Shown here one piece after another: positions 20,181 through 42,956 of a DNA stretch of 64,000 nt; position 1 is the stretch's first letter; every line of letters starts with the position of its first letter. The position numbers and the translations under genes were made by a program. The DNA lies in the NCBI RefSeq assembly GCF_011758645.1, contig NZ_JAAMOZ010000005.1, positions 62,001 to 126,000 of the forward strand. The letters run 5' to 3'. The notes beneath the pieces were generated by a model. That model saw only the letters and a list, made by a program, of their open reading frames with translations, did no database searches and was not told the DNA's origin. This DNA comes from Brooklawnia cerclae (GTDB lineage: Bacteria; Actinomycetota; Actinomycetes; Propionibacteriales; Propionibacteriaceae).

Positions 20181-20505
20181 GACCCCGACGCTACGGACGA
20201 CACCCCTGGGCGCACATCGGGCGGCGGATTGGTCCCGGGCCTCCCCCCGGGGGCTGATCCGCCGACCCACGTCACCCCGGGGTAGGAGGGGCCCTCAGGG
20301 GTTCCCCGTGGGGGTCGTCCTGCGGGAACGACGGCGACCGGGCTCTCCCTCGACAGGCTCAAAGACCCGGAACCCGCTCATTTCGACGGGCTCAACGAGC
20401 CACATCGGTCCTTGAGCCCGTCGAAAGGACCGCCTCGACCCCGTTCGACGAACGCTCGCGTCCCTCACCCGGATATTCTGAGCGCGACCGTTGAGGAGGC
20501 AGCCG
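20181..20505. other. Divergent intergenic region with hairpin-repeat cluster B
   Basis: 325 nt between the divergent ABC ATPase and nrtR genes. The left half (20181-20345) is very G/C-rich with C- and G-runs and no gene. 20345-20431 holds three hairpin-repeat copies, the best being GGTCCTT (20407-20413), loop GAGCCCGTCGA and AAGGACC (20425-20431). A TATTCT -10 box for nrtR follows at 20474-20479. Promoters for both genes must lie here; the one for the ATPase is not obvious. Confidence 0.7.
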
Positions 20506-21411
20506 GTGGACGGACAGGCGGTGTCGGCCGAACTACTCGCCGTCGTGGTGGCGATGGTGGAGGGCGAGCCCTGCGTCCTCACCCTGGGAGCCCCCCCGAG
20601 GCTGCCCGCCGGGCCGCTCATGCCCGGCCATCGTTCCCTGCAGACCGCCACCCGGGCCTGGGTCGAGGAGCAGACCGGCCGGACGCTCGGCTACCTCGAG
20701 CAGCTGTACACCTTCGCCGGGGTCGACCGCGCCGAGGCCCCGGGACGCCGCATCTCGATCTCCTATCTCGGTCTGACCACGCCGGACGACAGCACCGGCA
20801 TCGGCCGTTGGCATCCGTGGTACGACCTGCTGCCGTGGGAGGACCTGCGGTCGGGGGCCGGGCTGCCCGCAACCGTGGTGCCCAGCCTCACCGCCTGGAC
20901 CCAGAGCGATCCGGCCTTCGCGGGGAATCGGCGGCAGCGGTGCGCCATCACGTTCGGGTTGGACGGGCAGCCCTGGCAGCCCGACCTCGTCCTGCAGCGT
21001 TACGAGCTCCTGTACGAGGTGGGGCTGCTGCCCGAGTCGCCCGCGGAGTGGCGGCTTCCGGACACGGACCTGGTTCCCGGAGAGCGCATGGTGGGTGACC
21101 ATCGCAGGGTGCTCGCCACCGGGCTGGCCCGGCTACGCGCGAAGATCCAGTACCGGCCGGTGGTGTTCGAGCTGATGGCACCCGATTTCACCCTGCGCCA
21201 GCTGCAGGACTGCGTGGAGGCGCTCGCCGGGACCGTCATCCACACGCAGAACTTCCGGCGGCTGGTCGAGCAGCAGGAACTCGTCGAGGAGACCGGGGGT
21301 GTGGACGCGTCCACCGGCGGCCGACCGGCGAGGCTCTACCGGTTCCGCCGCCAGGTGCTCCAGCAACGCAGTGTCGCGGGCACCAAGCTACCCGCCGCAC
21401 GCGTGCGCTGA
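20506..21411 (+). CDS. nrtR: NrtR-type Nudix transcriptional regulator of NAD synthesis
   Basis: NrtR proteins pair a catalytically dead or weak Nudix domain, which senses ADP-ribose or related NAD breakdown products, with a C-terminal winged helix that represses NAD genes. The 301-residue product shows both parts. The Nudix-like fold (about residues 5-150) includes ATRAWVEEQTGRTLGYLEQLYTF in place of a full Nudix box. The winged helix (about 195-290) includes FTLRQLQDCVEALAGTVIHTQNFRRLV and ends in the family-typical RPARLYRFR. I chose GTG 20506 because GAGGAGG sits at 20493-20499. The adjacent nadABC operon with palindromic operators supports the role. Confidence 0.85.
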   Translation: MDGQAVSAELLAVVVAMVEGEPCVLTLGAPPRLPAGPLMPGHRSLQTATRAWVEEQTGRTLGYLEQLYTFAGVDRAEAPGRRISISYLGLTTPDDSTGIGRWHPWYDLLPWEDLRSGAGLPATVVPSLTAWTQSDPAFAGNRRQRCAITFGLDGQPWQPDLVLQRYELLYEVGLLPESPAEWRLPDTDLVPGERMVGDHRRVLATGLARLRAKIQYRPVVFELMAPDFTLRQLQDCVEALAGTVIHTQNFRRLVEQQELVEETGGVDASTGGRPARLYRFRRQVLQQRSVAGTKLPAARVR

Positions 21412-21532
21412 CCGGCCCGGCCGCAGCGTGAGGTCGTAGCCCTGCGGGCGATCATCCCGGCGCGCGCTGACCGTCTCCGGGTGGCCGCGACCGTTCGGAA
21501 CCGAGGTCAGGCGGGGTTCTCCGGACGAGGTC

Positions 21533-21640
21533 GTGACACAGTTCCTTGAATTTGCACTGCGCTCCGCCCCTGACGAGCATCTTCCCTTGTCACGTGCAAG
21601 CATCATGCGGGCCCGGCACAAATTGAAGGAACTGTGTCAC
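21533..21640. repeat. 108-bp terminal-inverted-repeat element, copy 1
   Basis: Bounded by a 22-bp inverted repeat with one mismatch (21533-21554 and 21619-21640), outermost bases GTGACACAGTTCCTT and its complement. The inner 64 nt are not conserved overall, but contain CATG at a fixed position: the ATG is 20 nt before the GAAGGAAC of the right arm, as in the two other copies. It sits between nrtR and the nad operators. The flanking 21412-21532 shows no gene or clear signal. Confidence 0.85.
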
Positions 21641-21702
21641 GGCCTTCGGCGCTGCCGGCCCCTCGGCGGGCCGCATCATCATGCGATCCCCCTGGTCATC
21701 TC

Positions 21703-21723
21703 TTTTGCTCAGGAGTAGCATAA
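21703..21723 (+). promoter_or_regulatory. Candidate NrtR operator 1 upstream of nadA
   Basis: Imperfect palindrome TTTTGCT-N7-AGCATAA. It is followed after one base by a second site of the same 7-7-7 layout. A possible promoter (TTGCTC at 21705-21710, TACTCA at 21728-21733, 17-nt spacer) overlaps both. Assignment to NrtR rests on position and symmetry. Confidence 0.65.
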
Positions 21724-21724
21724 C

Positions 21725-21745
21725 TTTTACTCAAAGCTAGCAAAA
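21725..21745 (+). promoter_or_regulatory. Candidate NrtR operator 2 upstream of nadA
   Basis: Palindrome TTTTACT-N7-AGCAAAA, centre-to-centre 22 bp from operator 1, so two dimers would bind on the same face of the helix. The site ends 18 nt before the nadA ATG, with the ribosome-binding site GAGGGAGG in between. Confidence 0.65.
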
Positions 21746-21763
21746 GCGTCGAGGGAGGACGCC

Positions 21764-22747
21764 ATGACAACAACCCTGATGACCGCCGCGGAGCTCTACC
21801 CGAGAGTGCGGCACGTCGTGCCCGCCGTCGAGTGGGCGACGATGGCCGACGACGTCGACGCGATCGGCCGACTCAAGCGCGAGCGCAACGCCGTGATCCT
21901 CGCCCACAACTACATGACCCCGGAGATCTTCCACGGGGTGTCCGACATCGTCGGAGACTCCCTCGCCCTGGCCCGGGAGGCGACGTCCGTCGAAGCCGAC
22001 GTGATCGTGCTCGCCGGGGTCCACTTCATGGCCGAGACGGCCAAGCTGCTCAACCCCACCAGGACGGTGCTGCTGCCCGACCTCCGCTCGGGCTGCTCGC
22101 TGGCCGAGTCGATCACCCCGGCCGACGTCCGCGAACTGCGGCGCCTGCACCCGGGCGTGCCGGTGGTGACCTACGTGAACACCTCGGCGGCGGTGAAGGC
22201 GGAGTCCGACATCTGCTGCACGTCGGGCAACGCCGTGGCAGTCATCGAGAGCCTCGGCGTGCCCGAGGTGATCATGATCCCCGACCAGTTCCTCGCCGCC
22301 AACGTAGCTCGTCAGACGGGAGTCCGGGTGATCACCCACCCCGGCGCCTGCGAGGTGCACGAGCGCTTCACCCCCGCCGACATCCGGCAGATCCGCGACG
22401 ATCACCCCGGGGTCACCGTGCTCGCCCACCCCGAATGCCCACCGGCGGTGCTGGACGAGGCCGACTACGCCGGATCCACTGCCCAGATGGTCGCCTTCGT
22501 CGCAGCCCGGCAGCCGGAACGCGTGGCCCTGATCACCGAGTGCTCGATGAGCGACAACGTCGCCCAGCAGTTCCCCGACATCGACTTCGTCCGCCCGTGC
22601 AACCTGTGCCCCCACATGAAGCGCAACACCCTGGGGACGATCCGGCACGCCCTGGAGACCATGACGCACCAGGTCACCGTCCAACCGGACGTCGCCGAGC
22701 GCGCACGCCTGGCCGTCGACCGCATGCTCGCGGTGGGGAACAAGTGA
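21764..22747 (+). CDS. nadA: Quinolinate synthase A
   Basis: Condenses iminoaspartate with dihydroxyacetone phosphate to quinolinate, using a [4Fe-4S] cluster. The 327-residue protein contains the expected cysteines in LRSGCSLAES, ICCTSGNAV and RPCNLCPHMK, plus the substrate segment LAHNYMTPEIF near the N-terminus. The ATG follows GAGGGAGG. Its stop overlaps the nadB start by one base. First gene of the nadABC operon behind the two palindromic operators, so repression by NrtR would control the whole de novo NAD pathway up to nicotinate mononucleotide. Confidence 0.97.
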   Translation: MTTTLMTAAELYPRVRHVVPAVEWATMADDVDAIGRLKRERNAVILAHNYMTPEIFHGVSDIVGDSLALAREATSVEADVIVLAGVHFMAETAKLLNPTRTVLLPDLRSGCSLAESITPADVRELRRLHPGVPVVTYVNTSAAVKAESDICCTSGNAVAVIESLGVPEVIMIPDQFLAANVARQTGVRVITHPGACEVHERFTPADIRQIRDDHPGVTVLAHPECPPAVLDEADYAGSTAQMVAFVAARQPERVALITECSMSDNVAQQFPDIDFVRPCNLCPHMKRNTLGTIRHALETMTHQVTVQPDVAERARLAVDRMLAVGNK

Positions 22748-31981: not shown

Positions 31982-32089
31982 GTGACAGACTTCCTTCAAA
32001 TCTCGCTCACCCGCAACCAGCCCGGGCATTCTTCCTTGCCAGAGCCGGAAGCCATGAAGACGCCCAGCGAATTGAAGGAACTGAGTCAC
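31982..32089. repeat. 108-bp terminal-inverted-repeat element, copy 2
   Basis: Same length and layout as copy 1. Left arm GTGAC-AGAC-TTCCTTCAA (31982-31999); right arm TTGAAGGAA-CTGA-GTCAC (32072-32089). The four bases between GTGAC and TTCCTT do not pair well, so the conserved parts are GTGAC and TTCCTTCAA themselves. The internal CATG has its ATG at 32054, again 20 nt before GAAGGAAC. It lies between the convergent rhaD and response-regulator genes. Confidence 0.85.
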
Positions 32090-42849: not shown

Positions 42850-42956
42850 GTGACCACGTTCCTTCATATTCCGTCCCCTCGGCCAAGCGCTGTTCCTGAC
42901 CAGGGGAAACACTGTCGCGCATGAGAGTCGCGTCAATTTTGAAGGAACTTGGTCAC
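42850..42956. repeat. 107-bp terminal-inverted-repeat element, copy 3
   Basis: Left arm GTGAC-CAC-GTTCCTTCA (42850-42866); right arm TGAAGGAACTTGGTCAC, ending at 42956. Internal CATG with ATG at 42921, exactly 20 nt before GAAGGAAC as in copies 1 and 2. The right end overlaps the last 4 nt of the minus-strand cbiO gene, so the element supplies its stop codon. It lies between convergent hemL and cbiO. Confidence 0.85.

Follow-up and report, generated by a model that had tools for sequence, protein, structure and literature searches.

What is to be made of short stretches of DNA that agree in their mirrored ends and in very little between them? The question arises from 64 kb of the Brooklawnia cerclae genome (hereafter the window, meaning this whole stretch), in which a preliminary description had singled out three elements and taken them for copies of one another. 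Their places and lengths proved correct, and the conserved outer sequence, GTGAC-N4-TTCCTT, is confirmed in all three. The features concerned are as follows, in window positions.

21533 to 21640, plus strand: element copy 1, 108 bp, core type I (from the sequence and the core analysis)
21533 to 21553, plus strand: left end of copy 1 (GTGACACAGTTCCTTGAATTT)
21577 to 21592, plus strand: core motif of copy 1, GCATCTTCCCTTGTCA, which begins at position 45 as counted from the left end, with 0 mismatches to GCRTNNNNCSTWGYCR
21620 to 21640, minus strand: right end of copy 1, inverted
31982 to 32089, plus strand: element copy 2, 108 bp, core type I
32026 to 32041, plus strand: core motif of copy 2, GCATTCTTCCTTGCCA, 0 mismatches
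42850 to 42956, minus strand: element copy 3, 107 bp, core type I
42897 to 42912, minus strand: core motif of copy 3, GTGTTTCCCCTGGTCA, which begins at position 45 as counted from the right-hand end, 2 mismatches

Copy 1 sits between a NUDIX/NrtR-like gene and a nadA-like gene (window 20491-22747), both named from their translations. Within the window, GAAGGAACNNNGTCAC at up to two mismatches is matched 12 times where 1.54 matches are expected, a number that none of 100 shuffles reaches. Across the six contigs of the B. cerclae genome (3,787,554 bases, 3.79 Mb), TTNAAGGAACNNNGTCAC at up to one mismatch finds 62 sites, and its reversed-pattern control finds 0. Fifty-eight of these ends fall into 29 pairs, three more pair with an end at two mismatches, and the last is an additional left end; the suspicion that the three copies belong to a larger family is thus borne out by 32 complete inverted pairs. 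The extra left end, 19 bp long, abuts a complete copy (L057:3871-3997; G000:C3:15870), and apart from its 127-bp pairing no pair longer than 118 bp occurs among the 62 ends. According to a crude gene caller, 23 of the 29 copies are intergenic, often right behind a stop codon, and 6 are flagged as overlapping a predicted frame.

The detailed anatomy of the family was read from the 29 copies with both ends found at no more than one mismatch. Each element carries two inverted ends of about 20 bp, which in the 58 ends take roughly the form GTGAC-NNA-GTTCCTTCAAAT; GTGAC and TTCCT are invariant, the search pattern itself having demanded GTGAC and TTCC. The base just outside is C on the left in 27 of 29 copies and G on the right in 28 of 29, so that the true conserved end is CGTGAC. 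Two features noticed in the window do not travel beyond it. The GG said to follow each element is not general, the second base after the right end being C in 16 copies and G in 11, and a CATG with its ATG 20 nt before GAAGGAAC is indeed present in all three window elements and at no other end (3 of the 58 ends of the 29 copies), which makes it a coincidence of the window rather than a family feature. Nor does the uniform length suggested by three copies survive a larger sample: the 29 copies measure 87 (1), 97 (9), 98 (1), 107 (8), 108 (9) and 118 bp (1), and the three further copies with a two-mismatch partner 97, 107 and 108 bp. The resulting four discrete classes (87, 97/98, 107/108 and 118 bp) step by about one turn of DNA, with a best-fitting period of 10.45 bp.

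Inside the elements, 22 of 29 copies have the first base of the core GCRTNNNNCSTWGYCR precisely at position 45, counted from one end, where shuffled interiors average 0.28 such copies and never give more than 2; since the motif was derived from the same copies, the result is its fixed position and not the match itself. The core orients the element, one half being fixed while the other lengthens by whole turns, so that 37, 47/48 or 58 bp separate the core from the far end. The variability of the interiors, already remarked upon in the window, holds for the family, whose interiors are nearly unrelated (mean pairwise score 0.014 vs -0.030 for shuffles); the most similar pairs score up to 0.22, where shuffled interiors do not exceed 0.12, and owe this in part to the common core. 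The CTWG of this core resembles the CTWGG site of Vsr, which is no more than a possible lead. A second core type, GCTGAGCGTGG, is present in L009 (B. cerclae, 98 bp) and, by eye, in L300 and L301 (genome G052, 101 bp), elements with different ends in two species; a two-mismatch form occurs in L053 of the congener G054, the MAG Brooklawnia sp. AS27yjCOA_64.

Terminal inverted repeats, non-coding sequence and dispersed copies are traits of MITEs, and it had been proposed that these are MITEs mobilised in trans. One part of that proposal stands, in that this is a repeat family which is probably mobilised or maintained in trans. The classical MITE is not supported: target duplications were looked for at 2-12 bp and none was found, the flanks of 29 B. 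cerclae and 13 G054 copies showing no excess of matches at any k in that range. Among the ends at up to one mismatch there is likewise no autonomous parent with a transposase and the same ends, and the larger, transposase-bearing copy that was to be looked for is absent from the 62; what exists instead is a DUF559 nuclease gene flanked by two complete elements. Between genomes G051 and G052, 14 of 16 element positions are common, with 400-bp element flanks 96-100% identical, which argues against recent movement. The same comparison yielded no clean empty site, its differences being rearranged loci, a 3.8-kb indel that carries one 101-bp element and an 88-bp deletion that cuts one element. An empty site for copy 2 was sought in congeners, in which synteny is broken at that place.

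The gene between elements emerged from a comparison of the gene neighbourhoods of 29 B. cerclae copies with those of 14 G054 copies, which gave one match, at locus L003. There, elements of 107 and 118 bp flank a gene for a protein of 287 aa in B. cerclae (L003:573-1436, minus strand), and at the corresponding locus of G054 the same two neighbours (66% and 69% identical) enclose just one element. G054 also encodes a 295-aa homologue, 55% identical and likewise between two elements, at a different place. The C-terminus of the 287-aa protein corresponds to DUF559 (PF04480), a modest assignment at 23.7 bits for a cut-off of 20.6; the two PF04480 scores, 23.7 and 24.1 bits, both lie above this curated cut-off. 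A profile search of the PDB places 3hrl, an endonuclease-like protein, nearest to the nuclease domain (E 0.0011), with a weak match to the mobile-intron nuclease 3r3p (E 0.56). Further weak Pfam matches are to MTES_1575 and AbiEi_4, the latter (E 0.026) in the G054 homologue only, and the PADLOC AbiEi model matches that homologue (E 5.7e-05) and not the B. cerclae protein; an AbiEi-like N-terminus of winged-helix type is thus a weakly supported prediction. AlphaFold, given a single sequence, produced a model too poor for use (pLDDT 39). The acidic positions E186, D217, E228 and D230 are conserved in 31, 32, 31 and 29 of 34 bracketed proteins and equally so in unbracketed relatives (34, 34, 34 and 31 of 39); shared by most of the 73 aligned proteins, the four are candidate catalytic residues. 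B. cerclae also holds a second element family, of 83 bp, of which two copies bracket a DUF559 paralogue (L133) and two are solitary:

G000:C1:336383-336465: 83-bp family copy
G000:C1:337420-337502: 83-bp family copy
G000:C1:2517103-2517185: 83-bp family copy
G000:C5:15391-15473: 83-bp family copy

How far do such elements reach? With their own ends, not far. At 0 mismatches the B. cerclae end pattern occurs in 2 of 198 genomes of the family, namely B. cerclae and, as a single site, another genus, and a relaxed paired pattern occurs in 3 of 391 genomes of the order: B. cerclae (28), G054 (19) and G129 (1 site). The G129 site, which has both ends near GTGAC and no further family feature, was set aside. 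A scan of 84,980 species genomes returned three loci in G054 and one match in Holosporales (L052), which, as a single A+T-rich locus in a different context, looks like chance. The 14 G054 copies read are 99 (9), 100 (4) and 119 bp (1) long, and their ends diverge after TTCCTT; G054 contig C31 (L078:19-545) holds three element copies in a 214-bp tandem array at the contig end. Neither the element nor a homologue of the DUF559 protein was found in viral contigs; phage records gave no match, and plasmids a single one of 28%, in Tsukamurella.

The bracketed arrangement reaches much further than any one end sequence. Within the genus, four orthologues are likewise bracketed, in some cases by other ends: those of G051, G052 and G056 (52-57% identity) each lie between two 89-bp elements, with ends of the CGTGACTGATCTTCTTCA type in G051 and G052 and of the CGTGCGAAACCTTCC type in G056. 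In G055 the sole representative is a divergent paralogue (29%, bracketed); G057 has one as well (30%, unbracketed) and G053 has none. A five-row profile finds relatives in 132 of 197 Propionibacteriaceae genomes and 25 of 29 genera. Bracketing was scored by a two-sided test for inverted-ended elements with the same ends on both flanks. At a score threshold chosen after a first look, 32 of 80 family genes have such matched elements (12/29 + 20/47 + 0/4) and 48 fail, the 80 not being independent (several are more than 60% identical), with the negatives L126-L129 and L138 (paralogues) and L280, L285, L287 and L289 included and L122 of G052, near-identical to L121, left out. In 30 of the 32 the two elements of a pair differ in length by no more than 1 bp, an agreement that the score did not reward in the tests giving 12/29 and 20/47; the unequal pairs, those of the B. 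cerclae gene (107/118) and L198 (68/79), each differ by 11 bp, one turn.

Controls for this test were of several kinds. No Markov-resampled flanks pass (0/116), and of 341 arbitrary placements in B. cerclae, G051 and G052 DNA the one that passes is a real pair of 101-bp elements. Mismatched flanks score at or below 14 in 10 of 812 and 37 of 2162 cases, pairs that probably join related families. A low-scoring control locus, L098, owes its score to flanks that overlap within a short contig and is superseded by the 341 placements. Seven of 27 control loci (L130-L132 and L134-L137) are weak DUF559 matches, none of which passed, and they are counted neither way because their flanks were measured from a partial match. 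Outside Propionibacteriaceae, 2 of 15 genes pass, both in G536 (67/67 and 67/68 bp), and 13 fail. Similarity of the proteins goes with similarity of their bracket ends (Mantel r 0.31, P 0.0002, n = 32), a signal that shared descent alone could also yield. In G051 (L316:6972-8605), a gene judged from its sequence to be aldo/keto-reductase-like lies between two 101-bp elements, from which it follows that non-nuclease genes can be bracketed. At L171, L121, L198 and L272 the bases just left of both elements are alike (at L121, GCTCCCGG twice), so some units may extend past their ends.

Dispersed copies accompany these other ends as well. Counting the gene's own brackets, CTTCTTCA-type ends delimit 16 complete elements at the loci examined in G052 and 19 at those in G051; the G052 elements comprise 3 of 101 bp and 13 of 89 bp, the latter with a core of the TTGGATCGATC type some 28 bp in from one end. 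Genome G097 has TGTCACAAATCTGCAA ends 44 times (control 0), and of its 18 fully read elements, 78-80 bp long, 14 hold a AATCGATTGC-like core (at up to two mismatches) at position 40-42. The plan of paired ends and an offset core therefore recurs, with different sequences, in G052, G097 and B. cerclae. Both bracketing elements of G097 are among the four copies there that have no core, and the B. cerclae bracket at L003:474 has no core match at 3 mismatches, which counts against a strict need for the core. By eye, the B. cerclae core recurs with 0 mismatches in one bracket element of G166 (L143), between quite different ends. At two further places in G097 (L239 and L260; C1:849910-851287 and 2234772-2236150), a transposase frame, assigned by eye from its sequence to the IS30 type, stands in mid-element, giving composites of about 1379 bp.

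The association of gene and element is well supported. We consider it probable that a nuclease-associated repeat system exists here in two forms, a short one, to which the window elements belong, and a long one, a gene of about 290 aa with a complete element on each side. The protein of this gene would join an AbiEi-like winged-helix-type N-terminus to a C-terminal nuclease of the DUF559/PD-(D/E)XK kind, bind both inverted ends and unite them in one nucleoprotein complex. Such pairing would require the ends to lie on a fixed face of the helix, and lengths in steps of about 10.5 bp would follow from that need; the asymmetric core, at its fixed distance from one end, might orient the complex or serve as a site of nicking or crossover. 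The nuclease would then cut at the ends, the core or the target, and copying or movement in trans, of the elements or of the gene together with its elements, would follow. That the DUF559 protein binds, loops, cuts and transposes such DNA is our inference. To the larger claim we give roughly even credence: that this is a new class of transposable element, in which a wHTH/PD-(D/E)XK (DUF559) gene is bracketed by, and mobilises in trans, helically phased paired-end elements with an orienting core, in many families with coevolved end specificities in Propionibacteriaceae and reaching at least one other actinobacterial family.

Four other explanations can be set against this proposal, and the two that leave the nuclease in play are the more serious. 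The elements may serve the host, a resident (domesticated) wHTH-nuclease using them for looping, repair, termination or self-marking, and the sites beside its own gene for autoregulation. Conserved ends and core with unconserved interiors are what binding sites kept in place should look like, 14 of 16 positions are common to two close genomes, and 23 of 29 copies are intergenic by the crude gene caller, 6 overlapping a predicted frame. Yet the ends vary among related species and genes, the copy sets of congeners differ (of 29 B. cerclae and 14 G054 copies only the L003 neighbourhood matched), and autoregulation poorly explains two-sided elements of equal length in 30 of 80 cases, all of which leaves host service unlikely, though with a real claim to attention. 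We are a shade more doubtful of a selfish gene of the homing type, the nuclease of which would cut an unoccupied target, with gene and brackets copied in by repair and solitary elements left as remnants of recombination between brackets. The nearest solved relatives by profile (3hrl at E 0.0011 and, weakly, the mobile-intron nuclease 3r3p at E 0.56), the contrast of element-gene-element in B. cerclae with one element at the same locus in G054, and the lack of target duplication all suit it; gene loss alone would hardly yield some 30 solitary copies whose interiors are nearly unrelated, and the bracketed gene occupies different places in B. cerclae and G054.

The remaining two fare worse. Ordinary MITEs might be moved by an unrelated DDE-type IS with ends matching GTGACNNNGTTCCTTCAA, the DUF559 gene being cargo of a composite transposon. 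Small size, terminal inverted repeats and dispersal fit such an origin, as do the IS30-type transposase frame in two G097 copies of about 1379 bp and the other G051 gene bracketed by two 101-bp elements. Against it, target duplications are missing and none of the 62 B. cerclae ends belongs to a long copy; the G097 frame is enclosed on either side by sequence of the element, and the short copies do without it; and one gene family is bracketed by many different end sequences, so that we regard this origin as very improbable. A structured RNA, a possibility also raised in the preliminary description, or a hairpin terminator is scarcely credible: all six strands folded are more stable than the shuffle mean (z -3.1 to -6.4), but this signal comes from the paired arms, which co-vary weakly at positions 6-8 (P 0.04) and nowhere else, the interiors are unconserved, lengths shift by whole turns of DNA, and no Rfam family reaches its gathering score in the 64-kb window. 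Phased lengths, a fixed core, unrelated interiors and weak co-variation of the arms fit a protein-DNA complex better than an RNA hairpin, and the protein-binding site proposed alongside the RNA is the idea favoured, the elements being probably protein-bound.

Should the nuclease-associated reading hold, its interest extends beyond one genus. DUF559 is listed in Pfam as a family of unknown function, and one of its branches is now tied to a gene-flanking repeat; each such protein gains a predicted DNA site, and a simple test of binding and cutting becomes possible. Among enzymes that disperse short repeats, the system would introduce a nuclease outside both the HUH and the DDE classes and, with its phased lengths and free interiors, would let DNA looping within a nucleoprotein complex be studied as a natural experiment. 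Among the open-access papers listed, judged by their titles and the opening of their abstracts, none describes elements of this sort.

Among known systems, the closest in layout is that of REP sequences and their RAYT proteins. REPINs consist of two inverted ends with a spacer, and the layout found here would, on the best reading, be REP/RAYT-like with a different, nuclease-type enzyme. REPtrons are described as a gene flanked by the repeat together with many dispersed short copies (PMC3733652; PMC8266576), and the layout here agrees with this: a DUF559 gene is bracketed by copies of a repeat that is also dispersed without the gene. The differences lie in the gene, which is AbiEi-like/DUF559 and not an IS200/IS605-type HUH transposase; in the tag, there being no GTAG and the ends reading CGTGAC..., or other sequences in other families; and in the lengths, which are helically phased, with a core at a fixed offset. 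CGTC-tagged palindromes are also dispersed, and their authors were unable to connect them with a transposase gene (PMC3733652); they are single hairpins of 20-40 bp, in contrast to elements of 66-129 bp with paired ends. The Haloquadratum SMR and PATEs, both archaeal, are transposase-free mobile repeats, and the mobilisation of SMR is called enigmatic (PMC3119063). PATEs share the lack of target duplication, but they resemble the ends of IS605-type elements and carry no terminal inverted repeats; SMR of one type are almost identical from copy to copy, unlike the nearly unrelated interiors here; and for neither does the description consulted mention a bracketed nuclease gene (PMC3119063).

With MITEs the elements share size, terminal inverted repeats, non-coding character and dispersal, and they depart from them in having no target duplication, no parental IS found, divergent interiors and quantised lengths. 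The Vsr-like homing endonucleases, to which the mobile-intron protein 3r3p presumably belongs, offer a weak similarity in the C-terminal nuclease domain, whereas here there is no intron, the N-terminal domain would be AbiEi-like and the gene has bracketing elements. Integron attC sites have RYYYAAC/GTTRRRY ends and an integrase; the end consensus GTGACNNAGTTCCTTCAAAT, compared by eye and for the ends alone, does not fit these ends, which speaks against that identity. MITEs, REP/RAYT and integrons each fail on at least one tested feature, and in its workings the system would seem to behave much as a REPtron does.
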